Positions 1 through 18,122 of a stretch of DNA of 18,154 nt are shown here, piece by piece. The stretch comes from Deltaproteobacteria bacterium (lineage in GTDB: Bacteria > JAUYMQ01), in NCBI GenBank assembly GCA_030698575.1, contig JAUYMQ010000645.1, forward strand, positions 1 through 18,154, given 5' to 3'. The stretch's first letter is position 1; every line of letters starts with the position of its first letter. Under the pieces are notes generated by a model that worked only from the letters and a program-made list of their open reading frames with translations, did not search any database and was not told the origin of the DNA. A program made the translations under genes and the position numbers.

Positions 1-742
1 CGGCGGGCGGCGGCTCGGCGATGTGCTTCCCCACGATCTGCTGCGACGAGTCGCCGTCGAACGGCGGGGCGCCGGTCACCATCTGAAAGAGCACGGCGCC
101 GAGTGAGTAGAGGTCCGAGCGGCGATCGAGGTTGGGGTCGCCGAGGGCCTGCTCGGGCGACATGTAGTGCGGCGTCCCGATCACCAGGCCCGTCTGCGTG
201 AGGCCGGCGCCCGCCGCGCCGTCGAGCCGCCGCGCGATGCCAAAGTCCACGAGCAGCGGCCGGCCACGCGCGACGTCGAGCATGATGTTGTCGGGCTTGA
301 TGTCGCGGTGCAGCAGCCCCGCCTTGTGCGCGTGATCGAGCGCGTCGAGGATCGGGATGATGATGGCGAGCGCACGCTCGGGCGGCAGCGCGCCCCCCCC
401 TCCCCCGGAGCGCTTGAGCAGCTCGCCCAGCGACATCCCGTCCACGAACGGCATCGCGTAGTAGGCGAGCCCTTGGCCTTCGCCCACGAAGTGGATCGGG
501 AGGATGTTGGCGTGCTCGAGCCGGGCGGCGGCGCGCGTTTCGCGCTGAAAGCGCTCGATCATCCCGGCGGTCCAGGCGACGTCGGGCCGCAGGACTTTGA
601 CCGCCAGGCGGCGCTCCAGCTCCTTGTCCCAGACTTCGTAGACCTCGGCGAAGCCGCCCGAGCCGACGACGCGGCGGACTTCGTACTTCTCGCCCAGGGC
701 GGCGGCGAGGCGGGAGAGGGCGGGGGTATTGGGGTCGGACAT
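1..742 (-). CDS. Hanks-type serine/threonine protein kinase, N-terminal part (runs off the window)
   Basis: The minus strand reads open from an ATG at 740-742 to the window edge, giving 247 residues of an STPK (PknB-like) catalytic domain. All key elements are visible: glycine loop GSGGFAEV (27-34), ATP-anchoring Lys in AVKV (K49), alpha-C Glu in RFQRET (E68), catalytic HRDIKPDN (145-152), metal-binding DFG (166-168), activation segment [10 protein letters not shown], and the RRSDLYSLG helix. It should be an active cytoplasmic kinase that phosphorylates Ser/Thr on partner proteins. Any sensor or membrane segment would lie downstream, outside the window. A glycine run (about 113-117) comes from a poly-C tract that is slippage-prone but in frame here. 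No strong Shine-Dalgarno precedes the ATG. It follows the DUF1697 gene on the same strand by 56 bp, so the two may be co-transcribed. The family call is secure; substrate and total length are unknown. Confidence 0.95.
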
Positions 743-3212: not shown

Positions 3213-3668
3213 CTAGCGCAACCGCCTGACCTCTTCGAGGGCTTCGATGTCCGCGGCGTCTTGCAGCCGTCCCGTGCGCTTGGTCTCGATGAGGTCGTCG
3301 ATTCCAATCAGGGGAATCTTGACCCCGTCTACATCCACGGTACCTGCGTTGGGTGCCGCCTGCTCGTATTTGACCTTCCACGCGACCGTGAACACGTCGA
3401 CTCGCGGGTCGTCGCCGATGACCGTGATCGGACGCTTCAGGACCTCAGCTGCGGTCCACTCGCGGGCGAAGCCATAGCCAAGTGTCGTCAGTGCTTTAAG
3501 GACGCGCGCGGCGTTCGCTTCAGTGCGCTCGATCAGGATATCGATGTCTTCGGTCGCGCGCGCGTATCCATGCAGAATGCAGGCGACACCTCCGATGACG
3601 AGGTATTTCGCCTTGCCGCGATTCAGCGCCGCGCAGACCGGTGTTATCCGCGATTGGCTCTTTTCCAT
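3213..3668 (-). CDS. MNT/AbiEii-type nucleotidyltransferase (likely toxin-antitoxin component)
   Basis: The 151-residue protein is a minimal nucleotidyltransferase: KYLVIGGVACILHGY (GG at 26-27), then RATEDIDIL with the metal-binding Asp pair (D41, D43) and a third candidate Asp in PRVDVF (D91). The C-terminal part IDDLIETKRTGRLQDAADIEAL is typical of DUF6036/AbiEii-like NTases. Members of this group often act as one half of a toxin-antitoxin pair by transferring nucleotides to tRNA or protein. The reading frame starts inside the end of the upstream ribbon-helix-helix gene (25-nt overlap), and GAGG lies about 10 bases ahead of the ATG within that gene, so the two are translationally linked. 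Which partner is toxin and which is antitoxin cannot be decided from sequence alone. Confidence 0.8.
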   Translation of the reverse strand: MEKSQSRITPVCAALNRGKAKYLVIGGVACILHGYARATEDIDILIERTEANAARVLKALTTLGYGFAREWTAAEVLKRPITVIGDDPRVDVFTVAWKVKYEQAAPNAGTVDVDGVKIPLIGIDDLIETKRTGRLQDAADIEALEEVRRLR

Positions 3669-4009
3669 TCGTAGAAGTCCTCGTAGGAATCGAAGCCGAT
3701 GATTTGCTGCACCGCGCCACGCCGCCGGCGCCGGCTCTGGGCGAGCCGCGACGTTGCCTCGGCCACTCGGAGCCGTTCGGCAGGCGAACGCGCGAGATCG
3801 CGCTCGAGCTGCTCGCGTCGAGCGACACCGACAGCGTCGGATCCGTAGGCGGGTTGTGGCGACTCGCGGACTGCGCTCGGACCTGTCAGGTATGCGCGCA
3901 GCGCATCGACAATCACCCGGCTGCGCGAGCGGTCGAGCTGCTTCGCGCGGCGGTCGGCAGCCGCGAGAACGCTTTTCGGCAGGGTAATGGCGATGCGAGC
4001 GTAGGCCAT
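3644..4009 (-). CDS. Ribbon-helix-helix (CopG-like) DNA-binding protein
   Basis: The 121-residue protein begins MAYARIAITLPKSVLAAADRR, followed by RSRSRVIVDALRAYL. This is a complete RHH fold in residues 3-41: the short beta strand ARIAITL, then two helices. The rest is charged and helical and ends with FDSYEDFYEWKRANRG. The start at 4009 places the beta strand at the N-terminus as in the family; a longer upstream reading frame runs through a repeat element and is rejected. It is the first gene of a two-gene unit with the nucleotidyltransferase, the usual layout in which the RHH protein represses its own promoter. A dyad at 4020-4046, directly ahead of the start, is the probable operator. Confidence 0.8.
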   Translation of the reverse strand: MAYARIAITLPKSVLAAADRRAKQLDRSRSRVIVDALRAYLTGPSAVRESPQPAYGSDAVGVARREQLERDLARSPAERLRVAEATSRLAQSRRRRRGAVQQIIGFDSYEDFYEWKRANRG

Positions 4010-4019
4010 GGGCGTACCT

Positions 4020-4046
4020 AGTATTACTGGGTATGAGTAAAATACT
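4020..4046. promoter_or_regulatory. Dyad operator candidate of the RHH/nucleotidyltransferase cassette
   Basis: AGTATTACT (4020-4028) and AGTAAAATACT (4036-4046) are inverted copies, differing by a 2-base insertion, around GGGTATG. The dyad ends 11 bases before the RHH start codon and is AT-rich in a GC-rich setting. On the minus strand it contains -10-like TAATAC. RHH repressors normally bind such dyads in their own promoter, so autoregulation is inferred. Confidence 0.5.
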
Positions 4047-4084
4047 TCAGGGGAGGGAAAGAGAGAAGGGGGGTGGTCAAAAGC

Positions 4085-4117
4085 AGATCGGTCGCGCCTG
4101 TGGCGCTCGGGATGACA
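4085..4117 (+). repeat. 33-nt dispersed repeat, copy 2
   Basis: AGATCGGTCGCGCCTG followed by TGGCGCTCGGGATGACA aligns without gaps to 1376-1408 with 28 of 33 identities. Both copies are intergenic and in the same orientation on the plus strand. Confidence 0.7.
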
Positions 4118-4167
4118 GCCCGCTGGGCGCATGTAAAGCAAGAAGAAGCGTGGTTGGTTGGGTCCGT

Positions 4168-4212
4168 GCGCTGAAGCGCCGGCTCGGCTACTGCGCACGC
4201 CCTGAAGGGCGT
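4168..4212. repeat. Twin small hairpins with a CTGAAG core
   Basis: GCGCT-GA-AGCGC (4168-4179) and ACGCCCT-GA-AGGGCGT (4197-4212) are two perfect inverted repeats sharing the central CTGAAG, with their centres about 30 bp apart. They look like small REP-type units. No T-tract follows, so they are not simple intrinsic terminators. Confidence 0.5.
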
Positions 4213-4247
4213 CGATTGCCACCGCGCGCGTCCTCATTGTCAGCGCG

Positions 4248-4833: not shown

Positions 4834-5517
4834 ATGAACGCCCTATTACGCAGGCGGCTGGAGATGGCCGCGCGGGTCCGCGATTTTATGCGGGCCCACA
4901 AGACGGACGCCGTTGGTGAGGGACTCGGGCTCGCGAAGTTCGAGGAGCTGATCCAGCGCGCGGAGGTACTGGTGGCGCAGCAGCGCGGTGGCGTCGTGGT
5001 GACGCGAGCGGCCACCCAGCAGCGCGCCAAGCTTCGTCGAGCGCTGCAGAGCAAGCTGCTGCTCTATCTGCGCGCGGTTGGCGCGGTGGCGGCGAAGGAG
5101 AACGCGGAGTTGGCGGTGCAGTTCCAGCTGCCGCCCACGAACGCCAGCCACCAGGCGTTGCTCACCGTGGCGCGCGGGATGCTGGAGAAGGCGACCGCGC
5201 AGAAGGAGCTGCTGGTGAGCCGCGGCATGTCCCCGACGTTGCTCGATGCTCTCGCGGGCGCGTTGGGGGAGTTCGAGAAGACGCTGGAGGCTTCGCGCGA
5301 AGGCCGGCGCAATCATGTAGGTGCAAGCGCCGATCTCAAGGCCGTGGCGGCCGAGATCAAAGAGCAGGTCCGCGTGCTCGATGGGCTCGTGCGGTTCCGG
5401 TTTGGGGAGAACGCGGAGCTGATGGGGGCGTGGGCCAGTGCCCGCAACGTGCTGGGTCCGTTCAAATCCAAGGGCGGACCGGAGGCGGGCGGTGGTGAAG
5501 CGCCGAAGGCGGCGTGA
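4834..5517 (+). CDS. Hypothetical alpha-helical protein
   Basis: The 227-residue protein starts MNALLRRRLEMAARVRDFMRAH. The ATG at 4834 has an excellent Shine-Dalgarno (AAGGAGGGG at 4823-4831, very close to the ATG), which rules out the longer in-frame start at 4696. The sequence is almost wholly helical and rich in Ala, Leu, Arg and Glu, with heptad-like stretches (QQRAKLRRALQSKLLLYLRAV; LDALAGALGEFEKTLEASREG) and a flexible Gly/Pro/Ala C-terminus. There is no signal peptide, membrane segment or catalytic motif. I do not recognise a characterised family. It appears to be a single-gene unit; the REP-like hairpin ends directly before its ribosome binding site and could influence translation. 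Confidence 0.75.
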   Translation: MNALLRRRLEMAARVRDFMRAHKTDAVGEGLGLAKFEELIQRAEVLVAQQRGGVVVTRAATQQRAKLRRALQSKLLLYLRAVGAVAAKENAELAVQFQLPPTNASHQALLTVARGMLEKATAQKELLVSRGMSPTLLDALAGALGEFEKTLEASREGRRNHVGASADLKAVAAEIKEQVRVLDGLVRFRFGENAELMGAWASARNVLGPFKSKGGPEAGGGEAPKAA

Positions 5518-5530
5518 AGGCGGCGCCGAA

Positions 5531-5544
5531 GCCTGGGCCCAGGC
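5531..5544. repeat. 14-bp perfect palindrome after the helical hypothetical gene
   Basis: GCCTGGGCCCAGGC lies 14 bases after the stop codon of the preceding gene. It could form a hairpin at the transcript end, but no T-run follows, so a terminator role is only possible. The rest of the 145-bp spacer to 5662 holds a TGGGCA-N6-TGCCCA dyad at 5619-5636 ahead of the Panacea gene. Confidence 0.3.
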
Positions 5545-5662
5545 GGCGAGGCGCGGTGGGTGGATGATCGCCTGCCGCGCGTTGTGCTTGTGCGGCTTAG
5601 ACTTGGCTAACGCCCTCGTGGGCAATTCGATGCCCATTGAGGGTAACATTGTATTGACGCTG

Positions 5663-6247
5663 ATGATGAAAACCGAGACATTGCAGCCGATGCCCCTCCG
5701 CTATCGAGAGGACAGGGCGACCCAAGCCGCGGCCAGGTTGCTGCGCCTGCGGGGCGGTACCATGTCCTACCTTAAGTTGATGAAACTCTTGTATTTCGCC
5801 GATCGGCGGGCCTTGGCAGAGCTAGGCAGGCCCATCAGCTACGACATGTACGTCTCCATGCCCCAAGGGCCGGTGCTCAGTCGCACGCTGGACCTCATGA
5901 CGGAAGAGCCAGAGCCCCATGCTGACCAGCTCTCGTATTGGCGCTCTTTTATTTCGGAGCCACACGACTGGGAAGTCAGTCTGCTGCGTGCCGAGATTCC
6001 AAACGACCAATTGTCGCGCGCCGAGGAAGAGATCCTGGATCGTGTCTTTGAGAAGTACGGGCGATTGTCGCGTTGGGAAATTCGCGATCTCTCGCACAAG
6101 CTTCCCGAGTGGCACGATCCGCACGGATCATGTGTGCCGATCAGCATTAAGGAAATTCTTCTGCACCAAGGCATGAGCGAGGAGGATGCTCAAGCGGTCG
6201 TCGAGGCCCTGGGCGCGGAAAGCTATGCGGACCAGCTAGCGAGTTGA
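5663..6247 (+). CDS. Panacea-domain (SocA-like, DUF4065) antitoxin
   Basis: The 194-residue protein contains the Panacea domain signature: MSYLKLMKLLYFADRRALAELGRPI, followed by SYDMYVSMPQGPVLSRTLDLM, then a helical C-terminal half (LSRAEEEILDRVFEKYGRLSRWEIRDLSH...PEWHDP). Panacea proteins are known antitoxins that neutralise unrelated small toxins encoded next to them (PanAT systems). It is followed after 16 bp by a small gene on the same strand, the expected layout. The start is uncertain: ATG at 5663 or 5666 is most compatible with the domain, while a start at 5630 overlaps a TGGGCA-N6-TGCCCA dyad, and none has a strong ribosome binding site. The composition is less GC-biased than the flanks, suggesting acquisition by transfer. 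Confidence 0.85.
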   Translation: MMKTETLQPMPLRYREDRATQAAARLLRLRGGTMSYLKLMKLLYFADRRALAELGRPISYDMYVSMPQGPVLSRTLDLMTEEPEPHADQLSYWRSFISEPHDWEVSLLRAEIPNDQLSRAEEEILDRVFEKYGRLSRWEIRDLSHKLPEWHDPHGSCVPISIKEILLHQGMSEEDAQAVVEALGAESYADQLAS

Positions 6248-6263: not shown

Positions 6264-6674
6264 ATGGAGTTCTTCAAGGCCGGAAGCGCCATTATCCTTT
6301 CAGGCTATCCGGTTGGCTCTCCTCACCTGTGGTTCGTTTTGACGGATCCTGATTCCGAATCCGATCAGGTTGTGGCCGTTATGGTCGTGACGGTACGCGG
6401 GCACACCGATAGAACAGTGACTCTATCCGCTGGCGACCATCCATTTATCAGGCATGATTCGTCGCTCGACTTCGGCGGTACGAAGCGCTTTCAGACGGCT
6501 CGACTCAACGCCGCCTTGCGCAGCGGTCGGTGTGAACTTTCCGAGAACATGACTGCGGCATTGTTGGGAAAGGTCCGGGCCGGGCTCTTAGCATCGCCCC
6601 GAACGCCCCATCACATTATCGATTACTGTCGCGACCGTTTTCCGAAGGACTTCACCCCTGAAGGACAGGCGTAG
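6264..6674 (+). CDS. Putative toxin of the Panacea pair (PemK/MazF-like)
   Basis: The 136-residue protein has strands such as GSAIILSGYPVGSPHLWFVLTDP and QVVAVMVVTVRGHTDRTVTL, then GDHPFIRHDSSLDFGGTKRF and a C-terminal helix. The succession of strands with an HPFIRHDSSL motif resembles small SH3-barrel PemK/MazF-like proteins that cleave RNA, but the match is by pattern only and catalytic residues are not certain. Its position 16 bp after a Panacea antitoxin is the strongest argument that it is the toxin. Its last 23 bases overlap, tail to tail, the 3' end of the nuclease-helicase gene on the other strand, leaving no room for a terminator between the two convergent units. Confidence 0.65.
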   Translation: MEFFKAGSAIILSGYPVGSPHLWFVLTDPDSESDQVVAVMVVTVRGHTDRTVTLSAGDHPFIRHDSSLDFGGTKRFQTARLNAALRSGRCELSENMTAALLGKVRAGLLASPRTPHHIIDYCRDRFPKDFTPEGQA

Positions 6675-9600
6675 TTTCGAGCTCCCGTGCGTAGTACCGC
6701 AGGCGACAGTACAGGTTGAACAGCTCCATCTCCTCCACGCTGTTCGGCCTCGTCCGGACCAGCTTCGACGACGCGACTACGATGGCCAAGCACCGCGCTC
6801 GCGACAACGTCACGTTCAGGCGGTTGGGATTGAGCAAGAACGCGGGACCCCGTGCTGTCTCCTCGAGCGATGAGGCGCACATGGAGACGATCACGACGGT
6901 GGCTTCCTGGCCCTGGAACTTGTCGACCGACGCGATACGGATCTTGGGATCGTTCATCCGTTCCTTAAGACAGCGCACCTGGGCGTTGTAGGGTGCCACA
7001 ATCAGCAGATCTTTTGCGACATCGAAACCGTGCTCCTTCCCATCGTCCTCGCGCACGGTGGCCCGGCGCAGGTCCGCGACGTACTCGGCGATCCGATTGG
7101 CCTCCTCCGCGCTCGACTGGGTGTTTCCCTCGTGCTCGATCTCGTCGAGGATGATCCCGGTGCCGCGTGAAAGCACGTGCGCATCGGGTGGTAGCTTGAT
7201 GCAACGCCTCGCGGTATTCGGACTGGGATGCAGCCGCCCTTCGTAGGCCGTATCCGAAATGAACCGGCAGATGTCGGGATGCAGGCGCCACGTGTCCGGC
7301 AGCAACACGCCCATGTCCGGCGGCACGGTGGCGTGCCCTTCCAGGAGATAGTGCAGGCATGACCAACCGCTGCGACCCGGATGCACGGCCTGGGCAGGCT
7401 GGGAGAGCTGCATCTGGTCGCCGATCAGCACGATGTTCTTGGCCGACAGGCCCATCGCGACGGCGTTGGCGAGGCAGACCTGGCCTGCTTCATCGATGAA
7501 GAGATAATCGAAGCACTGATCCAGTTCCGGCCGAGCGAACAGCCACGCGGAGCCGCCCACGACGATACCGTCAGCGAGGAGACCAGAGACCTCCTTAGTG
7601 TCACACTGACTGATCCGCCGTTCGGGATCGTCGGCAGCGTCGTCTTCACCACCGGCTTTGTAGATCGCCAGCGGTTTCGCCAAGGTCCGCGATGCGTTGC
7701 TGACGTCGGTCAGGAGATTGTTGATCGCCTTGTGGCTGTTCGATGCGACGCCAATGCGCTTGCCGCCGCTCGCCAACGCCACGATCACGGCCGCCGCGTT
7801 GTAGGTCTTGCCGGCACCGGGCGGCCCTTGAATGCAGAGCGTCGTGCGGTCGAGCCCGCGAATCAAGTCTATGAGATCGCCTGGGAATGTTGCCGCGTCC
7901 GGCAGCAACGCCCCGCCGGCTCTGTCGGTCAGCCTGGGCGTGCGGCGATGCAGGAGGTCGTCTACAGCGCGATACGCGTCGCGGTCACCGCTCGCCCAGT
8001 GTTCACCAAATCGGGTGACGGCCTCTCGCAGCGGGTCGGACGGGACGTGTTCGTTCGGAATGATGTGACAGAGATCGGGGATGGTGCGCTTGGGTCCGAA
8101 CTTGATGGTGAGCCGTCCGGTATCGAGATCCAATGACTCGATCTTGTGCTTCTCGACCTCGCTCCCGAACAGCAGGTAGACGCGGTCGCCCGCCTCGACT
8201 TTGGTATCCTGATCGGGATTGAACGCGTACTCCACAAGCTGCGATTTCTTGACCGGGACGGGGGGCGTCTCCGTGCGCGTCACGTACGCGATGCAATCGG
8301 CATCATCGTACAAATCCTCCGGCGGAGACTCGAGCCGATCGAAATACCGCCACCACATCGGCTTGTCCTCGCGCCGGTGGTAGCCGAGGAGCCACGCCAC
8401 CAGGCGAGTGACGTCGTCCTGGGCATTCGAAAGCATCGCCTCGGCCAGCTCGTCCTCGGGCCGTGGCTCATCCGGTTGCTCCGCCTCCGGCGGAGGCTGC
8501 GGGATATAGACGATGCCCGCTTCGCGTTGCCGCTCGCGCAGCCACGTGGCGAGATGCCAGGTATTCTCGCAGTCCTCGCGGTTGTAATCGCGGATGGCCT
8601 TGAGGATCGGTGATGCACGCCAGTCGGGTGGCTCGCCGCTGGCAAGCCAGTTGTTGTATTCGACGACGGAGCTGGCCGCGCTGGTGACGAGGGCCGTGCG
8701 CGCGGGCGAGAAGAGCACCTCGATGTCCTTGAGCGAGTAGCCCCTCGTCCCGATCGCGACGCCGTTCTTGGTGACGGCGTAGAGATCCACGAACACATCG
8801 CCGCGCAGCAGGTCATCCACCGCGTTCTCGCGGGTCGCGTACTTCCCCATGAGTCGCTGCAGCGCCGCCACTTCGTAATTGGCGTAGTGGTAGACGTGCA
8901 TGTTCGGATCTGTGCGCAGCCGCTCGTGGATCCAGTCCACGGTCCGCTCGAAGGCCGCCTTTTCCTGCTCCGCGTCGTGCGCCCATTCGTCCTTGAAGAG
9001 GGGCTTTCCGTCTTCGACCGTGATCGCGCCGAACAAATACTCGAGGCCGCTCTCGGCGAGGGGGTTGCCTTCGAGATCGAAGAAGACATCGCCGGGGGAA
9101 GCGGGCGGCAGCATGGCGAGCCCGATGCGTTTGCCGGTCTCGTGGGGCAGGGGCTCGAACGTGGGCTTCGCTTTGCCGCGAGACTCCATTTGGAGCCGGG
9201 CCTGGCGTCGCAGCCGCGCGAGGACGTCGTCCGAGATTCTCACCCCCTGGCCCCCTCTCCCTTTGGGAGAGGGGGAACTCGAGGCGAGCGCCGTCATGGT
9301 CGCGATACCGGCGGCGCGCAGGCGTTTGATCTGGCTGCGGGTGATGCGGGCGACGAGACGCAGGTCGTCGCGCTCTTCTAGGGTCTTTTGAGCCGCGGTC
9401 TCCCATCGCCCCCAGCTCCGCTCGAGGGCGGGGTCGGGCTGCGCGCCGGGATCGAAGGCTTCCTGGATTTCGAGGAAGGTGTCCCGCAGGTGGCGATAGA
9501 AGTAAAAGGAGCGGTCGGTCTCGAACCAGCGTTCTTCACCCGTGCCGAGGACGAAGCCAAGCTGCGGCGGGCGAGTGTCCTGGAGTGCTTCGAGGTACTC

Positions 9601-10062
9601 GGCGTAGGCGCAGAGCTGGATCAGGAAGTAGGGCTTGGCCGAGCGGGCGAGCTTTGAGTCGAGCGGCCGGTAGGACCAGGGGCCGAGGCGGCTCGGCGTT
9701 TCGGTGCGGACCAGGAAGTCGGGGTAGCCGTGCCAGACGCCGTGGTCGAGGCGGCCCTGGTAGATGAGCCTCTTCCCGGTCTGGAGCGCGGCGAGCGTGT
9801 TGGCGCCATCCTTCTCGTGCTCGAAGCGGACCGCGGGGCCGTGCTGGAGTTCGAGCTTGGCGAGGACGGCGGCCTCGTGCTGCATTCCCTTATCTCGGAC
9901 CAGGGCCATCTCGGGGTCGGCGTCGTCAGGGGAAGGGAAGCTCGGGTCTTTGCGTCCGCGCTCGGCGTAGGCGCGTTCCATCCAGGCGGCGAACTCACCG
10001 GAGAGGAAGGTGATGAGGTCGGAGGGGGAGAATTGGAGCGAGTGGCCAGCCGAATGTCTCAT
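6652..10062 (-). CDS. TM0106-type RecB-like nuclease, DEDD exonuclease and SF1B helicase
   Basis: A 1136-residue three-part enzyme. N-terminal RecB/Cas4-like nuclease: His62 in the MQHEAAVL segment, GYPDFL (112-117), LDSK (134-137), and the QLCAYAEYLE motif (149-158). Middle RNase H-like DEDD exonuclease: DVFFDLEGNP (325-334) and YNREDCENTWHLATWL (493-508). C-terminal Dna2/SMUBP2-like SF1B helicase: Walker A GPPGAGKT (746-753), Walker B LFIDEAG (854-860), LIGDQMQLSQP (879-889), VDKFQGQEATVV (1046-1057) and NVTLSRAR (1083-1090). It probably unwinds and degrades nucleic acid in the cytoplasm, and such proteins are common in defence islands. Residues about 263-271 (SPSPKGRGG) are encoded by a REP-like hairpin embedded in frame. 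It lies 65 bp downstream of the GGCT-like gene and may be the last gene of a six-gene minus-strand unit. No good Shine-Dalgarno is seen at the ATG. Confidence 0.9.
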   Translation of the reverse strand: MRHSAGHSLQFSPSDLITFLSGEFAAWMERAYAERGRKDPSFPSPDDADPEMALVRDKGMQHEAAVLAKLELQHGPAVRFEHEKDGANTLAALQTGKRLIYQGRLDHGVWHGYPDFLVRTETPSRLGPWSYRPLDSKLARSAKPYFLIQLCAYAEYLEALQDTRPPQLGFVLGTGEERWFETDRSFYFYRHLRDTFLEIQEAFDPGAQPDPALERSWGRWETAAQKTLEERDDLRLVARITRSQIKRLRAAGIATMTALASSSPSPKGRGGQGVRISDDVLARLRRQARLQMESRGKAKPTFEPLPHETGKRIGLAMLPPASPGDVFFDLEGNPLAESGLEYLFGAITVEDGKPLFKDEWAHDAEQEKAAFERTVDWIHERLRTDPNMHVYHYANYEVAALQRLMGKYATRENAVDDLLRGDVFVDLYAVTKNGVAIGTRGYSLKDIEVLFSPARTALVTSAASSVVEYNNWLASGEPPDWRASPILKAIRDYNREDCENTWHLATWLRERQREAGIVYIPQPPPEAEQPDEPRPEDELAEAMLSNAQDDVTRLVAWLLGYHRREDKPMWWRYFDRLESPPEDLYDDADCIAYVTRTETPPVPVKKSQLVEYAFNPDQDTKVEAGDRVYLLFGSEVEKHKIESLDLDTGRLTIKFGPKRTIPDLCHIIPNEHVPSDPLREAVTRFGEHWASGDRDAYRAVDDLLHRRTPRLTDRAGGALLPDAATFPGDLIDLIRGLDRTTLCIQGPPGAGKTYNAAAVIVALASGGKRIGVASNSHKAINNLLTDVSNASRTLAKPLAIYKAGGEDDAADDPERRISQCDTKEVSGLLADGIVVGGSAWLFARPELDQCFDYLFIDEAGQVCLANAVAMGLSAKNIVLIGDQMQLSQPAQAVHPGRSGWSCLHYLLEGHATVPPDMGVLLPDTWRLHPDICRFISDTAYEGRLHPSPNTARRCIKLPPDAHVLSRGTGIILDEIEHEGNTQSSAEEANRIAEYVADLRRATVREDDGKEHGFDVAKDLLIVAPYNAQVRCLKERMNDPKIRIASVDKFQGQEATVVIVSMCASSLEETARGPAFLLNPNRLNVTLSRARCLAIVVASSKLVRTRPNSVEEMELFNLYCRLRYYARELETTPVLQG
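9239..9284. repeat. REP-like hairpin element, copy B, inside a coding sequence
   Basis: CCCCCTCTCCC (9251-9261), loop TTT, GGGAGAGGGGG (9265-9275) is a perfect 11-bp stem within a 46-bp unit matching 4781-4826 at 41 positions. It keeps the helicase frame open and adds a short Ser/Pro/Lys/Gly linker between the nuclease and exonuclease parts. Confidence 0.8.
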
Positions 10063-10699: not shown

Positions 10700-11563
10700 T
10701 CAGCACTGAGACGCTCGGAATTCGGACCACGTCAGAACCCGTGTCATGGCATAGCGACCGTCCAGGACTGCTCGCGCTGCCCGACGAAGGGGGCGGTCCT
10801 CAGTCACAAGGAGGGCCTTGCGACCACTAGACAGATACAACAGTTGGAGAAGATCTGCATGCTGAACGCGTTTGGGTTGTTCAGCTACAACCGTTCGCTC
10901 AAATACGGCGATTCCTTCAAGCTCTATGAGAAGACGCCACACCGGATGTACGAGAAGTGCTTCGACAGGGGCATCTCCCTGAAGTCCTAGCTTCGTCCAA
11001 ATGCCGCGAAGAAAGTCATCTTGCTGTAGCGCCTTGGTCCATTGACCATCCAAGAATTCTGCTGCCGAACCCCATCTGTCCGCTCCTGATTGCCTCTTCA
11101 AGAACCCTCGAATAACGGGCCGTGCTCTCCGGTGCATTGCGTCGAACCGCTCTTCGAGGTCTTGGCGAAACTTCGCGGCCGCGCGTCGAACCTCTTCGCT
11201 CACGTTGCCTGGGTGTTCGAGCATCGGTTCGAGCCCAGAGCGACCACTCCAGAAGCCGGGTTGGCCTTGAACAATTGCCTGTCCAGCCTTCCTCAGTATG
11301 TGCTCAGGGAGCGGTAATAAGCCCTTTTCGCCGGCAAGGGCTGAGAGGATGGTTAGGGCGCGGCGTCGGATGTCAGGATTTTGGTTACTCGCTATCTCGA
11401 TTGCGTTGATAGCAGTCGGCCATATCTCAAAGTCCACGGCGGCGAGGCTCCGCGTGATCATCGCCCGTTCGGATCGATCCTCTAGGAACTTCAGGCAGTT
11501 TGTATCGAATACAACGATGCCAGAGGGTTGGTTCGATGCGCGCACGTGCCACGGGCTCTTCAT
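10700..11563 (-). CDS. PIN-domain protein (putative RNase) downstream of the TAC module
   Basis: The 287-residue protein shows PIN-fold features: VVFDTNCLKFLED (D20 and N22), PTAINAIEIA with Glu56, and at the C-terminus VQHADLLQLLYLS (D237) followed by ALLVTEDRPLRRAA (E255, D256). These acidic residues would bind the metal ions for RNA cleavage. A helical insert of about 170 residues (60-230) separates the conserved acidic clusters, making it much longer than VapC toxins. The ATG at 11563 is preferred over a GTG three bases upstream. It starts 7 bp after the SecB-like gene, so it is most likely translated from the same mRNA. No separate antitoxin is adjacent, so a toxin role is unproven; it may be an effector of the module. 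Confidence 0.7.
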   Translation of the reverse strand: MKSPWHVRASNQPSGIVVFDTNCLKFLEDRSERAMITRSLAAVDFEIWPTAINAIEIASNQNPDIRRRALTILSALAGEKGLLPLPEHILRKAGQAIVQGQPGFWSGRSGLEPMLEHPGNVSEEVRRAAAKFRQDLEERFDAMHRRARPVIRGFLKRQSGADRWGSAAEFLDGQWTKALQQDDFLRGIWTKLGLQGDAPVEALLVHPVWRLLIELEGIAVFERTVVAEQPKRVQHADLLQLLYLSSGRKALLVTEDRPLRRAARAVLDGRYAMTRVLTWSEFRASQC

Positions 11564-11570
11564 CACGCCG

Positions 11571-12005
11571 CTACGCTTTTTGCTTTCTTCGAGTCCCAGT
11601 CTGCGCCTTGAGATTGAATGGGCTGAGCCACACGGGACCGAATCGCCCCCGACCAGTGATGTTGGCGATCGCCTCTCGAATGAATGGAAAGACCAGAGTC
11701 CAGCCGGCCAATGAGACGTAGTTATCGAGGGGCATGTTCGGAGCGGTCTGCTCGCGCTCCAGGAGCGCAGTCATCGTCACGTCGAACTCGTAGACAGCCT
11801 CCGTTTTTGGCTTTGTTCGTACTCTAGTCCGAATCAATGCAGCGGAGCCGTCGCTCGTGAGTCCAGTTTCGAGAGCTACAAGGAGCTCTCGAACATCCGC
11901 AGGCTTTTCGGCGGGAAGGTCTAAGAACCCTGGTCGGTGCTTGAACGTCGCTTTCTCCAAGAAAACTTGGACTAGGCGAATCCCAGGCTGTTTCGTCTCA
12001 TCCAT
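11571..12005 (-). CDS. SecB-like chaperone of a toxin-antitoxin-chaperone module
   Basis: The 144-residue protein carries the SecB fold: an N-terminal strand IRLVQVFLEKATFKH, a central YEFDVTMTALLERE, and the conserved C-terminal segment LVFPFIREAIANITGRGRFGPVWLSPFNL (104-132). Canonical SecB guides proteins to SecA, but solitary SecB-like proteins next to HigBA or MqsRA systems are known chaperones of the antitoxin (as in M. tuberculosis HigBA-Rv1957). Its ATG overlaps the antitoxin stop codon (TGATG), indicating translational coupling, and GAGG lies 7 bases ahead. The gene order toxin-antitoxin-chaperone is that of TAC modules. A TTG three bases upstream is an alternative start. The basic C-terminal tail TGTRRKQKA is unlike canonical acidic SecB. 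The family call is confident; binding of the adjacent antitoxin is inferred. Confidence 0.9.
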   Translation of the reverse strand: MDETKQPGIRLVQVFLEKATFKHRPGFLDLPAEKPADVRELLVALETGLTSDGSAALIRTRVRTKPKTEAVYEFDVTMTALLEREQTAPNMPLDNYVSLAGWTLVFPFIREAIANITGRGRFGPVWLSPFNLKAQTGTRRKQKA

Positions 12006-12670
12006 CAAGCCACCTCAATTGCACAATCATCAGGCGCAGAACCTGTGCTCCGTTTGGTTCCGGAGTGCGCGGTTGATGTCGTCTTGCCAGATGTCGACTT
12101 AGCAATCAAACGAAACCGTCCATACTGCTTGCGTCGCACCGAGGCACCAACGTGCACAACCATCGTAAAAATCTTTGACGACGATTTCGAAAAATCGTGA
12201 ATCAAAGACTGCCGGACTTCAGTGCCGGCGCCTTCCGAACGATGAACGGCCTCCACGCCGTTCCGCCGCGCGACGGCTTCAAAGACTCCCGGGAAGTCCC
12301 GTGCGATGAGCAGCAGATTGTCAACAGCTTTGCTCTGGCACACACTTCCGCGTTCCCACCGCACGACTGTCTTCGCTCCAAGCCCCAATGCCTTCTCAAG
12401 CTGCGCTTGCGAAAGACCGTACGCTGCCCGGATTTCTCTGATCTCCAGGGGCGACAGGAGACCGGCATGAGTGCGAAGGACCGCTGCTCGCGCCCGGCTC
12501 GAGGCAAGGGACTGTTCGGGGGTGTAGAATGCCTCGCCACACGTCGAGCACGTGGTAAGCTCGTCTTCGTAGTTCAGGACACCACCGTCAGGCGCGCGGA
12601 CACTTTGAGCAGTCCGCGTCGGCACGAGCGTCGCTTGTTTACAGCTAGGGCACACAGGGAAACCAGTCAT
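12005..12670 (-). CDS. mqsA: MqsA-like antitoxin with C-terminal chaperone-addiction tail
   Basis: The 221-residue protein begins with a zinc-ribbon of the MqsA/YgiT type (Cys7 and Cys10 in CPSC; Cys41 and Cys44 in CSTC) and continues with an XRE-type helix-turn-helix (about 73-129: LEIREIRAAYGLSQAQLEKAL, then RWERG). E. coli MqsA ends soon after this, at about 131 residues. Here roughly 80 extra residues follow (140-221), with a hydrophobic stretch SSSKIFTMVVHVGASV and a Ser/Thr/Lys-rich end. In known TAC systems such tails make the antitoxin depend on the SecB-like chaperone, and this tail is read as that element by analogy. The gene starts 13 bp after mqsR and its stop overlaps the chaperone start. 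The HTH makes it the natural autoregulator of this operon, and perhaps of the divergent BREX promoter. Confidence 0.88.
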   Translation of the reverse strand: MTGFPVCPSCKQATLVPTRTAQSVRAPDGGVLNYEDELTTCSTCGEAFYTPEQSLASSRARAAVLRTHAGLLSPLEIREIRAAYGLSQAQLEKALGLGAKTVVRWERGSVCQSKAVDNLLLIARDFPGVFEAVARRNGVEAVHRSEGAGTEVRQSLIHDFSKSSSKIFTMVVHVGASVRRKQYGRFRLIAKSTSGKTTSTAHSGTKRSTGSAPDDCAIEVA

Positions 12671-12683
12671 GGGATCGCTCTGA

Positions 12684-13007
12684 TCACTTCGAACTCTTGA
12701 ATGACAGCACCTTGAGATCGTGGTCCTTGGGCAGGCGGATTGACACTTTCACGTAGAGTAACCTCTCCTGATAGCGTTTTCGGAATACGTAAACCTCCTT
12801 ACCTGGAATAGTCTCGTCCGGTTCTTCCTCACGAATCTCACCCACCGTGAGACTGCACAAACACTCGAGAACATCCTCAGCATCCAGGTCCAAATCGCCT
12901 AACGACGACTGCACTCTCGCTTCGATTCTCACCTGCCGCGCGTGTGCCAACATCCGAATCAGACGGACAGCTTCCACCCGGCGCGCATCCGCCCCGGCGT
13001 CACTCAT
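12684..13007 (-). CDS. mqsR: MqsR-like toxin (mRNA interferase family)
   Basis: The 107-residue protein resembles MqsR in length and in its C-terminal half: GKEVYVFRKRYQERLLYVKVSIRLPKDHDLKVLSFK aligns in pattern with E. coli MqsR, in which a WQDVYRPR-like segment precedes VYLKITV and a terminal VSFK. The N-terminal half (VRIEARVQSSLGDLDLDAEDVLECLCSL) also matches the MqsR helix arrangement. MqsR is a RelE-fold ribonuclease that cleaves mRNA at GCU-type sites; catalytic residues in this divergent copy are not assigned. It is the first gene of the minus-strand operon, toxin before antitoxin as in mqsRA. A stop lies 9 codons upstream with no alternative start, so the ATG at 13007 is firm, although no Shine-Dalgarno precedes it. 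A promoter with TTGACA lies about 150 bp upstream. Confidence 0.8.
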   Translation of the reverse strand: MSDAGADARRVEAVRLIRMLAHARQVRIEARVQSSLGDLDLDAEDVLECLCSLTVGEIREEEPDETIPGKEVYVFRKRYQERLLYVKVSIRLPKDHDLKVLSFKSSK

Positions 13008-13136: not shown

Positions 13137-13165
13137 GGTGTAGCACCATCATAGCGTATTGTCAA
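13137..13165 (-). promoter_or_regulatory. Sigma70-type promoter of the TAC operon
   Basis: On the minus strand, a perfect -35 TTGACA (13160-13165) is followed after 17 bp by TACACC (13137-13142). A GGTGTAGCACC dyad (13137-13147) overlaps the -10, and a GGTGCTACC near-copy occurs at 13039-13047. A better -10-like TATGAT at 13148-13153 lacks a well-spaced -35. The leader to mqsR would be about 120 nt. Confidence 0.5.
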
Positions 13166-13170
13166 CTGTA

Positions 13171-13190
13171 CGCCGGCAAGTTTGCCGGCG
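13171..13190. promoter_or_regulatory. Perfect palindrome, candidate shared operator between TAC and BREX
   Basis: CGCCGGCAAGTTTGCCGGCG has 9-base arms around GT. Its centre (13180.5) coincides with the centre of the two outward-facing TTGACA boxes, each 5 bp away from the palindrome. A dimeric regulator bound here would sit symmetrically against both promoters. Confidence 0.6.
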
Positions 13191-13195
13191 GGGAC

Positions 13196-13223
13196 TTGAC
13201 ATACCTGCGACACCGGATAGCAT
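13196..13223 (+). promoter_or_regulatory. Sigma70-type promoter of the BREX operon
   Basis: TTGACA at 13196-13201, 16-bp spacer, TAGCAT at 13218-13223. It lies about 65 bp ahead of the chosen start of the first BREX gene and directly after the palindrome at 13171-13190. Confidence 0.6.
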
Positions 13224-13287
13224 TCCAGCGCGACCGGGACATGCCCTTGACCGTCGGACGGAAACGCCGAGCCGGAGACTTGGAACG

Positions 13288-14094
13288 GTGACCAGCTACC
13301 AGTTCGCTTGGCCTGGACCTAGCCCTCATTGGCGGGAGGAAGACGCCCAACAGGTGGGGCTCAAGTTCGGCGACAAGGGCACGCACACGAGCCGTACGAT
13401 GATGCTCGAGGAGCTCGCGACGGTATTGTCCGCGGTCCCCGAGCTCGGCACACGAGAGGATTACGAACATGCGATCGTTTCCGACAACTGCCTCGGCAAA
13501 CCCACCGGCTCCACACGTCGGCTGAGCCGCCAACGTCTCGCCGAGCTTTACGCCCTCGATCCGACGGTTCCTCTCTTTAGGGTGCTGCGGCGACTCTGGC
13601 GGGTCGAGGATTCAGGACGACCCCTGCTTGCCCTCTTGTCCGCCATGGCGCGCGATCCATTACTCCGCGCCACAGCGCCCTCGGTGCTGTCCCTCACGGA
13701 GGGTGAGGAGTTCCGGCGAGTCGGAGTACGAGACACTCTCCGTGAGGCGGTGGGAGATCGACTCAATGACAGCACCCTCGACAAGGTCGTCCGCAACGCC
13801 GCGAGTTCATGGAGTCAAGCGGGGCACCTGAGCGGGCGCACGTTCAAGGTCCGTCGGCGTGTGCACCCAACACCTGCGACCGTCGCATACGCGCTCTATC
13901 TTGGCGTCAAGACCGGATTCAGCGGAATCGACTTGTTCACGAGCGGTTGGATAGCATCGCTTGACGCGGACCCATCGACGGCGCGCGAGGTCGCGTTGAC
14001 TGCCAAACGACTCGGACTCATCGACCTTCGCTTGTCCGATGACATTTTCCAATTGAACGTCGACCGCCTGGACCCTTGGGCGGGGAAGGCTTGA
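13288..14094 (+). CDS. BrxA-like first gene of the BREX operon
   Basis: The 268-residue protein is chosen from GTG 13288 (GTG ACC AGC TAC), with GGAG 11 bases upstream; the longer frame from a TTG at 13159 would start inside the promoter region. The middle part (EHAIVSDNCLGKPTGSTRRL, then SRQRLAELYALDPTVPLFRVLRRLW) resembles the BrxA/DUF1819 pattern in which a conserved Asn-Leu helix is followed by a thread of helices, but the N-terminal 50 residues and the C-terminal GIDLFTSGWIASLDAD region are unlike E. coli BrxA. It ends 3 bp before brxB, the usual place of brxA. BrxA is a small DNA-binding protein of BREX; its exact role is unsettled. The functional equivalence is inferred from position and weak similarity. 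Confidence 0.6.
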   Translation: MTSYQFAWPGPSPHWREEDAQQVGLKFGDKGTHTSRTMMLEELATVLSAVPELGTREDYEHAIVSDNCLGKPTGSTRRLSRQRLAELYALDPTVPLFRVLRRLWRVEDSGRPLLALLSAMARDPLLRATAPSVLSLTEGEEFRRVGVRDTLREAVGDRLNDSTLDKVVRNAASSWSQAGHLSGRTFKVRRRVHPTPATVAYALYLGVKTGFSGIDLFTSGWIASLDADPSTAREVALTAKRLGLIDLRLSDDIFQLNVDRLDPWAGKA

Positions 14095-14097
14095 ATA

Positions 14098-14661
14098 ATG
14101 GGCCGCATTGAGGATCTCGCAGAGCGATACGGGCGGGATATCGCGACGCCCTGGCAACGCACCGTCGCCGGTGCGCAGCGGGTCGTCATGGTGGTATACG
14201 ACAAGGATCTGGAGCGCACGCTCCGCGCCCGGCGGCAAGCGTTCGAGCTTGAGACGCAAAAGGCCTTGCACGACTGGTTCGAGGTGGACGTTACAGATGC
14301 ATTCGGCCGCTGGATGGCGTCCAGCGAATACCGCGAGGCGTACTTCGAGTCTCCGGAAGATCTCGAGCTCAAACTCGAGGCCGAGTTCGCCGAAGTCGTT
14401 GCCGAACGGATTCGAGCCACGCTCGCTCGTCCCGACGTCACGGCGAATTCTGTGGTCGCGGTGCTCGGCGTTGGATCGCTATACGGGCTAACGCGCGTGT
14501 CGAAAGTGCTGAAGCTGGTGGAGGGAGATATCAAGGGACGGCTGGTCGTCTTTTTTCCCGGCCAGTACGAGCAGAACAACTATCGCCTGCTGGATGCGCG
14601 GGATGGATGGAACTACATGGCAGTGCCGATCAGTCTGCACGGCACAGGAGAAACGCAATGA
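14098..14661 (+). CDS. brxB: BrxB (DUF1788), BREX component
   Basis: The 187-residue protein matches the DUF1788/BrxB pattern: an N-terminal helical domain (RQAFELETQKALHDWFEVDVTDAF), then VVAVLGVGSLYGLTRVSKVLKLVEGDIKGRLVVFFPGQYEQNNYRLLDARDGWNYMAVPI, the conserved C-terminal block of the family. BrxB is required for BREX activity but has no defined enzymatic function; it is thought to act within the BREX complex. The ATG at 14098 is preceded by GGGGAAGG eight bases upstream, and the gene begins 3 bp after the BrxA-like stop. Its stop TGA overlaps the ATG of brxC (ATGA), so translation is coupled. Identification is confident. Confidence 0.93.
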   Translation: MGRIEDLAERYGRDIATPWQRTVAGAQRVVMVVYDKDLERTLRARRQAFELETQKALHDWFEVDVTDAFGRWMASSEYREAYFESPEDLELKLEAEFAEVVAERIRATLARPDVTANSVVAVLGVGSLYGLTRVSKVLKLVEGDIKGRLVVFFPGQYEQNNYRLLDARDGWNYMAVPISLHGTGETQ

Positions 14662-17600
14662 AGATTACCGAGATCCTACAGCGCGATCCGAAGACGAACC
14701 CTCTCGTCAACCAGGGGCAGGCGCGCATCGTGGATCGTACCACGGCGCGAGAGGTGGCAGAACTGAAGGCGGAACTGGGCACATTCGTGTGTGAGGGTGA
14801 GTACTCCGAAGCGATCCAGCGGATTCTGTCGTCGTACCTCGCGAACCTGCAACACACCAGCCAAAAGGCCGCCTGGGTGAGTGGGTTCTTCGGCAGTGGC
14901 AAGTCGCATCTCCTCAAGATGCTCTGCCACCTGTGGCAGGATACCGCCTTTGATGACGGGTCCACCGCCCGGAGCCTGGTGCCGGCACTGCCGCAAGAGA
15001 TTCGCGCGCTATTGCGCGAACTGGACACGGCTGGCAAGCGGGCCGGGGGCCTGCTAGCAGCGGCGGGGTCGTTGCCGGGCGGTACCACCGATAACGTGCG
15101 GCTGACCGTGCTGGGCGTCCTTCTGCGCGGCGCGGATCTTCCGGAGCAATACGCCCAGGCGCGTTTTTGCCTGTGGCTACACGAGCGTGGGTTCTACGAC
15201 CGCGTGCGTGAGGCCGTAACCTCAGCGGGCAAGTCTTGGGACTCAGAGCTCAACAACTTGTACGTGAGCGATGTGCTCGCGAAATCTCTGCTCGGTTGTG
15301 ATCCCGCGTTTGCTCCCAACGAGGTCGAAGCCCGCAAGACGATCCGGGCCCAGTTCGATCAACCGAAGACGGACATTCCGACAAACGAGTTCCTACGAAT
15401 CGCCAAACAAGCCCTCGCACTCCGGGGGCGCGACGGGCGCCTGCCATGCACGCTGCTCGTTCTGGACGAGGTACAGCAGTATATCGGCGGGTCCGTCGAG
15501 CGTTCCACGCTCGTCACGGAAGTCGTCGAAGCGATCTCGAAACAACTCGATGGCCACGTGATGGTGGTCGGCGCCGGCCAGAGCGCACTATCTGAGCAGC
15601 AACTGTTTCACAAGATGCTCGACCGGTTCACGATTCGCGCCCAGCTCTCCGACACGGACGTCGAGGCGGTGACGCGCAAGGTGCTCCTCCAAAAGAAGCC
15701 GGCAGCAGTCGCAAAGATCCGAGAGTTCCTCAAGCAGCACGACGGGGAGATCTCCCGCCAGCTCCACGGGTCGCGTGTCGGCGCGTCGATGGAAGACGAC
15801 GCCGTAATCGTCGATGACTACCCTTTGCTTCCGGTGCGGCGCCGCTTTTGGGAGCACGTCTTCCGGGCCGTGGACTTAGCAGGAACGCACAGTCAGTTAC
15901 GTTCGCAGCTGCGCATCATCCACGATGCGGTGAGCAAGCTGTCGGATCGCGAGCTGGGAGCAGTTGTGGCCGCCGACGAGCTCTATGAGGCGCTGGCTCC
16001 CGAAATGGTCAACACCGGCGCCCTCCTCAGGGAGATCAATGAGCGGATCATCAAGCTCTCGGAAAGCGGGACGAAGGAAGCCAAACTTGCGCGCCGTATC
16101 GCGGGGCTCGTTTTCCTGATCGGCAGGTTGCCGCGCGAGGGGGGCGCCGACATCGGGGTCCGCGCCACCAAGGACCACTTGGCGGACCTATTGGTCGATG
16201 ACCTGCGCGGGGACAACGGGAAGCTGAGAAGCGAAGTGGAGGCGACCCTGGCCAGTCTCGCCCAGGACGGTGTGCTCATGCAGGTCGGCGACGAGTACCG
16301 ACTGCAAACCCGCGAGGGAAGTGAGTGGGATCGCGAGTACCGTAACCGCCTTACTCGTGTCACAGGTGACGAAGTCGCAATCACAACCGAGCGCGAGCGT
16401 CTGCTCTACGGGGAGATCGGCCGTGTGCTGGGCAGTATCCGCCTCCAGCACGGCAAGGCAAAGGAGACGCGACAGCTGGCGGTCCACCGAGATCAGACGC
16501 CACCGCCGCCCGCCACCGATGCGATCCCCGTTTGGATTCGCGACGGGTGGTCAGGGCAGGAAAAGGACATGGTGGACGCCGCGCGTCGCGCCGGAGCCGA
16601 TGGCGCCGTCGTGTATACGTTTCTGGCGCGGCAAGCCCCGGAGGACTTCCGCGAGGCCATCGTTGAATCACTCGCCGCGCAGCAAGCCCTTGATGCGAGG
16701 GGCCACCCGACTACGCCGGAAGGGCAGGAAGCCCGCCGCAGCATGGAGAGTCGCGTAGCGCTCGCTACGAAGCGCCGAGACGATTTGGTGCGTCAAATCG
16801 TCGCCAATGCCAAGGTCTTCCAGGGTGGAGGTAGCGAGGTACTCGATAACGTCCTCGACGAGCGACTGCGCTCGGCGGCTAGCGCTTCCATTACCCGACT
16901 ATACCCGCAGTTCGACGAGGCTGATGCACTGGCCACTGCGTGGGACAGTGCTATCAAACGCGCCCGCGACGGCGCTGACCACCCGCTCCAACCGGTGGGG
17001 CACACGGGACCGATCGAGGATCATCCTGTATGCCGGCAGGTGCGGCAGACGATCGGGGCCGGCGCGACAGGAACGACGGTGCGGAAGGCTCTCCGGGCGG
17101 CTCCCTATGGTTGGCCGCAGGATGCGATTGACGCGGCGCTCATCGCCCTCCACCGCACGCAGCACGTGACCGTCGTCCTGAACGGCGTGCCGGTGCAGCT
17201 TGGTCAGCTCGACCAGAACAAAATTGCGAAAGCGGAGTTCAAGGCCGAGAAAATCACGCTAAACGCGACCGACCGTATTGCGATTCGGTCAGTCTTCAGC
17301 TCGGCCGGCGTGAATTGCAAGTCCAACGAAGAAGGCCTGCGTGCCGGCGAGTTCCTCGCGGCACTCGGGCGGTTGGCCGACGCAGCCGGCGGTGACGCGC
17401 CCCTGCCGCAACCGCCGTCCCAGGCCGTCATCCAAGAGCTGCGAGCGCTGGTGGGCAACGAGCAACTGGTGGCGATTCGGAATCGTGCGGAGGATCTAAA
17501 GAAGGAGATCGAGAGCTGGAAGAAGACCGCGGATCTCGCCGCGCAGCGTCGTCCCACCTGGGCGCTCGTGGAGCACCTTACGCGCCACGCGGCGAGCATT

Positions 17601-18122
17601 CCCGCCGCGCGCGAGGCGATCTCGCAGGCCGAGGCTATCTGGGCTGGCCGCATGCTCTTGGAGCCGAATGACCCGGCGACGCCGGTTCGGGCGGCGCTGG
17701 CTGGGATGCTGCGTCAGGCAGTGACCGAGGCAAACTCCGAACGACAACGCGCGTATACCGCTGGCACGGCGCGTCTCGAGAGCAGCAGTGTTTGGAAGCG
17801 GCTTCCGGGCCCCGATCAGACGAAGATTCTGTCGGACGTCGCGCTCGTGAAGCCCGGGACAGAAGATGTTCGGACCGATGAGGCGCTGCTCGCTGCTCTC
17901 GACCGCCACACTCTTGAGGCACGCCGCTCGGAGGCCGACGCCGTGGCGGGAAGGGTCGAGCGGGCGCTCGAGCTGGCCGCCCGGGCTCTCGAACCCAAGG
18001 TGCAGATGGTGAGCCTCGAGCGTGCGACGCTCCGGACAGAGGCCGAGGTTGGTGAATGGCTCGATCGGCAGAAAGTAAGGCTGACCGAGGCGCTGAAGCA
18101 TGGCCCGGTGTTCGTAAGCTGA
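14658..18122 (+). CDS. brxC: BrxC (PglY-type) P-loop ATPase of BREX
   Basis: The 1154-residue protein has the BrxC start MKITEILQRDPKTNPLVNQGQ, a Walker A GFFGSGKS (76-83) in the context SGFFGSGKSHLLKML, and a Walker B LLVLDEV (266-272). The length (about 1150-1200) is normal for BrxC. Long helical, basic stretches follow in the C-terminal two thirds. BrxC is an AAA+-like ATPase that works with PglX and PglZ to modify host DNA and block phage replication. The start at 14658 (AGGAGAAACGC ahead of the ATG) is chosen over an upstream ATG at 14607 because of that ribosome binding site and the ATGA overlap with brxB. No frameshift or missing motif is apparent, so the gene looks intact. Confidence 0.96.
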   Translation: MKITEILQRDPKTNPLVNQGQARIVDRTTAREVAELKAELGTFVCEGEYSEAIQRILSSYLANLQHTSQKAAWVSGFFGSGKSHLLKMLCHLWQDTAFDDGSTARSLVPALPQEIRALLRELDTAGKRAGGLLAAAGSLPGGTTDNVRLTVLGVLLRGADLPEQYAQARFCLWLHERGFYDRVREAVTSAGKSWDSELNNLYVSDVLAKSLLGCDPAFAPNEVEARKTIRAQFDQPKTDIPTNEFLRIAKQALALRGRDGRLPCTLLVLDEVQQYIGGSVERSTLVTEVVEAISKQLDGHVMVVGAGQSALSEQQLFHKMLDRFTIRAQLSDTDVEAVTRKVLLQKKPAAVAKIREFLKQHDGEISRQLHGSRVGASMEDDAVIVDDYPLLPVRRRFWEHVFRAVDLAGTHSQLRSQLRIIHDAVSKLSDRELGAVVAADELYEALAPEMVNTGALLREINERIIKLSESGTKEAKLARRIAGLVFLIGRLPREGGADIGVRATKDHLADLLVDDLRGDNGKLRSEVEATLASLAQDGVLMQVGDEYRLQTREGSEWDREYRNRLTRVTGDEVAITTERERLLYGEIGRVLGSIRLQHGKAKETRQLAVHRDQTPPPPATDAIPVWIRDGWSGQEKDMVDAARRAGADGAVVYTFLARQAPEDFREAIVESLAAQQALDARGHPTTPEGQEARRSMESRVALATKRRDDLVRQIVANAKVFQGGGSEVLDNVLDERLRSAASASITRLYPQFDEADALATAWDSAIKRARDGADHPLQPVGHTGPIEDHPVCRQVRQTIGAGATGTTVRKALRAAPYGWPQDAIDAALIALHRTQHVTVVLNGVPVQLGQLDQNKIAKAEFKAEKITLNATDRIAIRSVFSSAGVNCKSNEEGLRAGEFLAALGRLADAAGGDAPLPQPPSQAVIQELRALVGNEQLVAIRNRAEDLKKEIESWKKTADLAAQRRPTWALVEHLTRHAASIPAAREAISQAEAIWAGRMLLEPNDPATPVRAALAGMLRQAVTEANSERQRAYTAGTARLESSSVWKRLPGPDQTKILSDVALVKPGTEDVRTDEALLAALDRHTLEARRSEADAVAGRVERALELAARALEPKVQMVSLERATLRTEAEVGEWLDRQKVRLTEALKHGPVFVS

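Follow-up and report, generated by a model that had tools for sequence, protein, structure and literature searches.

A putative palindromic operator precedes brxA in a widespread clade of type-1-like BREX systems, with BrxA as its candidate reader

We find that a palindrome lying upstream of brxA in an 18,154-nt stretch of deltaproteobacterial DNA (the whole stretch analysed, hereafter the window) recurs as exact GCCGGC-N6-GCCGGC in 41 BREX loci, each time just ahead of brxA, and that these loci span at least seven phyla. The comparison of loci gives good support to its reading as an operator intrinsic to BREX. The site would probably be read by BrxA, which the first gene of the operon encodes; BrxA would thereby hold its own operon low (autorepression).

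In the window, TGTCAA (13160-13165), the palindrome CGCCGGCAAGTTTGCCGGCG (13171-13190) and TTGACA (13196-13201) are separated by 5 nt on either side and share a common centre at 13180.5. The preliminary description of this DNA had the coordinates and letters of all three elements right. The palindrome, which it called perfect, is however composed of CGCCGGCAA-GT-TTGCCGGCG, with 9-bp arms and a central GT that is not self-complementary. It is more than a chance occurrence, because no further exact copy exists in the 4.13-Mb assembly and because, at up to three mismatches, it is seen once in the window against 0.04 times in shuffled versions of the window. A plausible -10 box (TAGCAT, 16-bp spacing, score 10/12) accompanies the right TTGACA, and this pair is the sole promoter-like site in the 10-18 kb part of the window, where shuffles also yield about one. 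Transcription of brxA would be expected to start near 13230, with the operator centre near -50 (for coordinates of the features, see Table 1).

The left TTGACA differs from the right one: its best -10, TACACC, matches at three of six positions at a distance of 17 bp, and no promoter is called. Out of the two divergent promoters that had been proposed here, the right one is thus plausible and the left one weak or absent, its spacing not being conserved. When about 40 other loci are compared, a mirrored TTGAC at 6-bp spacing is found in the window only. Mirrored minus-strand TTGAC occurs to the left of the core in three loci including the window (16 bp away in L028, 17 bp in L041, and 6 bp in the window), against one expected by chance. 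The two-sided symmetry of the -35 boxes is therefore a weak observation, since the mirrored TTGAC is rare among loci and near its chance expectation; the palindrome together with the right promoter is the strong one. The left spacings in these three loci fall within the spacing bins seen on the brxA side (below), and the operator may now and then serve a divergent gene.

Table 1. Positions of the features in the window (strand and supporting matches as available; helices in residues of the window's BrxA)
Feature	Position	Strand	Details
SecB-like chaperone	11571..12008	-	PF02556, E 2e-8
MqsA-type antitoxin	12005..12670	-	TIGR03830, E 6e-26; HTH and C-terminal extension
Left-unit small gene, toxin position	12684..13007	-	no family match; outside the conserved BREX unit
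Mirrored TTGACA	13160..13165	-	weak or no promoter; best -10 TACACC, 3/6
Putative BREX operator	13168..13193	.	core GCCGGC-AAGTTT-GCCGGC at 13172-13189, plus flanks
brxA promoter	13196..13223	+	TTGACA 13196-13201, 16-bp spacer, TAGCAT 13218-13223
brxA	13288..14094	+	GTG start; GGAG upstream at 13274-13277; PADLOC BrxA, E 1.6e-92
brxB	14098..14661	+	family profile matches
brxC	14655..18122	+	NF033441, 762 bits; contig ends 32 nt after
Candidate recognition helices of BrxA	residues 74-88 and 161-178		K166, R169

To the right of the palindrome, brxA, brxB and brxC follow one another in that order, and matches to PADLOC, Pfam and NCBIfam profiles bear out the brxA-like-brxB-brxC unit that had been described. 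The unit appears to be a type-1-like BREX system, of which the window contig shows brxA to brxC only and ends after brxC. The genes pglX, pglZ and brxL would be expected beyond the contig end, because the palindrome-bearing relatives have all six BREX genes, by length and by order. To the left, on the minus strand (11571-13007), is a toxin-antitoxin-chaperone (TAC)-like unit of a 107-aa protein, a 221-aa MqsA-type antitoxin and a SecB-like protein; the antitoxin, with its C-terminal extension, and the chaperone form one operon. This unit had been read as mqsR-mqsA-secB: the second and third assignments stand on their family matches, whereas the 107-aa protein in the toxin position has no Pfam match up to E 5, and a low-confidence single-sequence model of it gives no clear fold match.

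Several further gene groups lie on the left side of the window. At 6652-10062 (minus strand) is a 1136-aa fusion of a TM0106-type RecB-like nuclease with an SF1 helicase. Between it and the TAC unit lie an orphan of 180 aa and a PIN-like protein (10700-11566); this region is probably a defence island. A Panacea/SocA-type antitoxin-domain protein (5438-6247, plus strand; E 8.5e-24) and the small orphan that follows it (6264-6674) are a probable toxin-antitoxin pair. A possible pair of the same kind is formed at 3213-4237 on the minus strand by a ribbon-helix-helix protein (3644-4237) and then a nucleotidyltransferase-like protein (3213-3668).

The closest annotated relative is found on the Azospirillum lipoferum plasmid AZO_p1, whose BrxA is 55% identical and which carries AAGCCGGCAAACTTGCCGGCTT upstream of brxA, with TAC genes absent beside it. 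Scanning with an alignment of BrxC turned up 80 loci in genomes and 11 in viral contigs; 23 loci, the window counted, belong to a single BrxC clade and carry GCCGGC-N6-GCCGGC ahead of brxA. A motif scan allowing up to two mismatches in 1.44 Mb gave 33 matches, compared with one for the reversed control. In the 41 exact loci, the GCCGGC arms are invariant and the central letters vary; to these we added locus L169, which has the symmetric variant ACCGGC..GCCGGT, a double change. A search of genome contigs with BrxA alone gave no matches, and the window's own phylum is represented by this genome only.

The site is also nearly exclusive to this position. In 20 genomes or records of the clade (~86 Mb), exact copies of GCCGGCAANNTTGCCGGC are confined to brxA; there are one or two operator copies per genome, all of them there. 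Seven exact copies of GCCGGCAANNTTGCCGGC occur in 385 other genomes, six in long ORFs and one with a T-run (terminator-like). In IMG/VR, the exact AAGTTT form is present in eight stretches, two of them upstream of brxA and six inside ORFs. An exact-string search for the motif in a library of papers gave no match. Through many phyla, the operator accompanies a single large clade of type-1-like BREX (brxA-B-C-pglX-pglZ-brxL).

Across the 39 distinct sites, the consensus spans 24 bp, YTC-GCCGGC-AARYTT-GCCGGC-GAR, and conservation drops beyond ~3 bp outside the core. Of the 42 sites, 18 have a TTGAC no more than 20 nt downstream of the core, where 0.9 would be expected, and in 17 of these 18 the gap is either 4-7 or 15-17 bp (P ~ 1e-5 for 10.5-bp phasing against random phases, sites taken as independent). 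Since the two bins are about one helical turn apart, the gaps argue for a protein operator. Elsewhere in the clade, the site is 1-7 bp downstream of the -10 (L026, L028, L031, L046, L093, L105, and L181) or over it (L167-L169). Two copies bracket the brxA promoter in L026 (6530-6616; cores 69 bp apart, start to start) and in L105 (6544-6625; 64 bp), an arrangement like that of repression from paired sites. The site adjoins or overlaps the brxA promoter, and its layout is that of a protein operator.

Outside the core, the outer two flanking pairs are complementary in 24 and 32 of the 39 sites, compared with 16.5 and 22.6 expected from re-paired flanks; deeper pairs are not complementary above re-paired flanks. 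Two loci, L026 and L044, have 7-bp stem extensions of unique sequence. A plain protein operator does not account for the flank covariation and these extensions, and the covariation hints at stem-like evolution, through either hairpin selection or palindrome-extending mutation.

Beyond the core genes of BREX, the palindrome loci have no gene family in common. The Carboxydocella locus consists of exactly six contiguous genes in canonical order, with no regulator among them. BrxR, or another WYL protein, was rejected as an unseen reader: no such gene lies upstream of brxA in any of the 19 palindrome loci with at least 1.2 kb upstream (window included), against eight of 56 nonpalindrome loci, and the WYL matches in the palindrome-clade genomes are far from the BREX loci. 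A global regulator with a regulon was also rejected, since the clade genomes hold no second exact site.

BrxA is a dsDNA-binding protein with two HTH elements (PMC9240713), encoded by the first gene of the right unit; contrary to what had been stated, the MqsA-type antitoxin is therefore not the only nearby DNA-binding protein. A 2026 paper calls BrxA "of unknown recognition specificity" and reports that it binds BrxC (PMC13326643), and a regulatory role has been called possible (PMC12839542). The Escherichia fergusonii protein is a monomer, and the binding shown for it is to bulk lambda DNA at 250-500 nM (PMC9240713). The AF2 model of the window's BrxA (pLDDT 94.3) has the two-HTH, all-helical BrxA fold, aligning with 7ZGE over 184 residues (Z 15.1, rmsd 3.0) and with 3BHW at Z 14.5; in sequence searches of the PDB, BrxA alone has no match and the BrxA profile finds 7ZGE weakly. 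The model also aligns with SspB of the Ssp defence system (6lb9, 6juf; Z 10.7, 230 residues) over its full length, including the C-terminal part that is absent from 7ZGE.

Residue K166 of the window's BrxA, in the second of the two candidate recognition helices, corresponds in the alignment to K147 of 7ZGE, which has been proposed to contact DNA (PMC9240713). Both K166 and R169 are invariant in all 42 palindrome loci. Among 111 scorable loci, the signature [DEA]-K-x-x-R is present in 42/42 with the site and in 3/69 without it (L048, L052, and L078); with Q/T82-R/K83 added, the counts are 41/42 and 0/69. The rule for residue 165 was at first D/E, and A was added after L167 and L168, which have the palindrome and A165; counts are given for both versions. 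Palindrome-clade-specific residues of BrxA are enriched in the two helices (six of 11, P = 0.001). Loci L039 and L043 branch within the palindrome clade, yet the palindrome is missing there and their BrxA no longer has recognition-helix residues 165 and 169; being sister rows, they count as one event, a suggestive case of co-loss of site and helix residues in that lineage.

For a held-out set, a BrxA profile made from the first loci (A5) was run on ~1,175 genomes from the phyla of three clade members, a Verrucomicrobiota, a Planctomycetota, and an Acidobacteriota. This gave 30 new scorable loci, 18 of which have the exact site, with the L169 variant in addition. The original signature, [DE]165-K166-x-x-R169, is accompanied by the site in 17/17 held-out loci (16 exact and the L169 variant), compared with 2/13 of those lacking [DE]-K-x-x-R, both of which have A165. 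On a BrxA tree built without the two helices, the site changes about three times, leaving two to three independent contrasts between site and signature; none runs in the opposite direction, and they are too few for significance. The association between signature and site is thus clade-level and confounded with phylogeny.

We favour BrxA as the reader because there is no other shared regulator and because its clade-specific recognition helix predicts the site. The GCCGGC half sites would be contacted through its two HTH elements; once bound, BrxA would keep its own operon transcribed at a low, standby rate. Autorepression is suggested by the sites that, in several loci, cover the -10 or the start region, where a bound protein blocks polymerase. 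We infer repression rather than activation from position alone, and sites near -50 and -61 also suit an activator. More speculatively, titration of BrxA by BrxC or by phage DNA might raise expression on infection. The complete scheme, in which BrxA is a sequence-specific autoregulator at the 24-bp operator and infection turns the operon up by drawing BrxA off to phage DNA or into BREX complexes, is offered tentatively, as plausible but short of probable.

With so few changes of site and signature along the BrxA tree, the same association would be expected for every core BREX protein that came down together with the clade, and the phylogenetic evidence does not separate BrxA from the other core genes. 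Also against BrxA stand the three loci with [DEA]-K-x-x-R and no palindrome, the A165 of L167 and L168, and the monomeric state and bulk-DNA binding of the E. fergusonii protein. It is possible, if rather unlikely, that the same operator is read by another core protein or complex (the BrxC wHTH, BrxL, or PglX) or by an unlinked host regulator, possibly an activator, which the sites near -50 and -61 would fit. In favour of this, BrxC binds DNA and carries a wHTH (PMC13326643). However, the clade-specific residues concentrate in the HTH helices of BrxA, and a host regulator would have to keep one specificity across at least seven phyla while the clade genomes offer it no second exact site.

The covariation of the two outer pairs beyond the consensus would also fit an RNA or DNA hairpin, acting as an insulating terminator or as a leader hairpin ahead of BREX, and the BREX system of Salmonella is indeed flanked by terminators (PMC9009780). 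We consider this very improbable. An intrinsic terminator was rejected since the T-run after the site is absent in the listed loci, and a hairpin acting as RNA only was rejected since many sites are upstream of the -35: 18 lie there and hence are not transcribed from that promoter. The helical phasing and the sharp 24-bp window of conservation fit a protein site.

The preliminary description had made the MqsA-type antitoxin the reader, binding the palindrome and coupling BREX to the state of the antitoxin and chaperone, and in this one window the dyad symmetry, the divergent arrangement of the two units and the presence of an HTH antitoxin at a distance of 0.5 kb do suggest it. The comparison of loci leads us to reject it as owner of the site, and we regard it as very improbable. 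The palindrome precedes brxA in 40 other loci, and no relatives of the window's MqsA, SecB, or toxin-position protein are found within ~6 kb upstream in the first-round palindrome loci, the window excepted. Matches to PF15731 in 19 palindrome genomes or records are on other contigs or, on the Azospirillum plasmid, ~268 kb away. When the proposed co-occurrence was checked, the palindrome went with brxA and not with mqsRA-secB. The left promoter is weak, and the Escherichia coli MqsA operator, AACCT-N3-AGGTT, is unlike the palindrome and not enriched in the window. Of the single symmetric regulator that had been proposed, the dyad operator of the BREX promoter is retained, and control of both units through MqsA is not; the TAC-like module appears incidental to BREX and peculiar to this one neighbourhood. 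Least probable of all is a nonregulatory recombination or mobile-element site (REP, att): BREX is mobile and an integrase-like gene lies near the Azospirillum copy, but a REP-like or mobile repeat was rejected because the one or two copies per genome are all at the brxA promoter, with phased spacing, and not at island ends; loci in unrelated integration sites keep this tie to the promoter.

The preferred reading, a BREX operator bound by BrxA, bears both on how most BREX systems without BrxR stay safe and ready and on the DNA target of BrxA. A near-invariant operator shared by distant phyla provides a concrete candidate sequence for BrxA binding and a bioinformatic tag for this BREX clade, and it suggests that the defence machine may sense its own state through one of its parts.

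The controller (C) proteins of restriction-modification systems are small HTH proteins that regulate their own promoter via a palindrome; they are dedicated regulators, whereas BrxA belongs to the core of the defence machinery itself. MqsRA-SecB loci are toxin-antitoxin-chaperone modules, and the window's left neighbours resemble one, but they are not conserved with the palindrome and are not its likely owner. The known BrxA proteins (7ZGE, 3BHW; PMC9240713) share the fold and the first-gene position of the window's BrxA; no sequence specificity or promoter role is reported for them. A parallel in layout is given by the R-boxes of BrxR (WYL) in the Acinetobacter and E. fergusonii pEFER BREX systems (PMC9122589, PMC9122601), likewise dyads by a type 1 promoter and sometimes present as two sites, as in L026 and L105. 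BrxR keeps BREX on standby in systems that have brxR, a gene that the palindrome clade is without. The boxes differ as well: those of BrxR have 10-11-bp half-sites with a 5-bp spacer, whereas here a 6-bp spacer separates GCCGGC half-sites, whose conservation extends across phyla.
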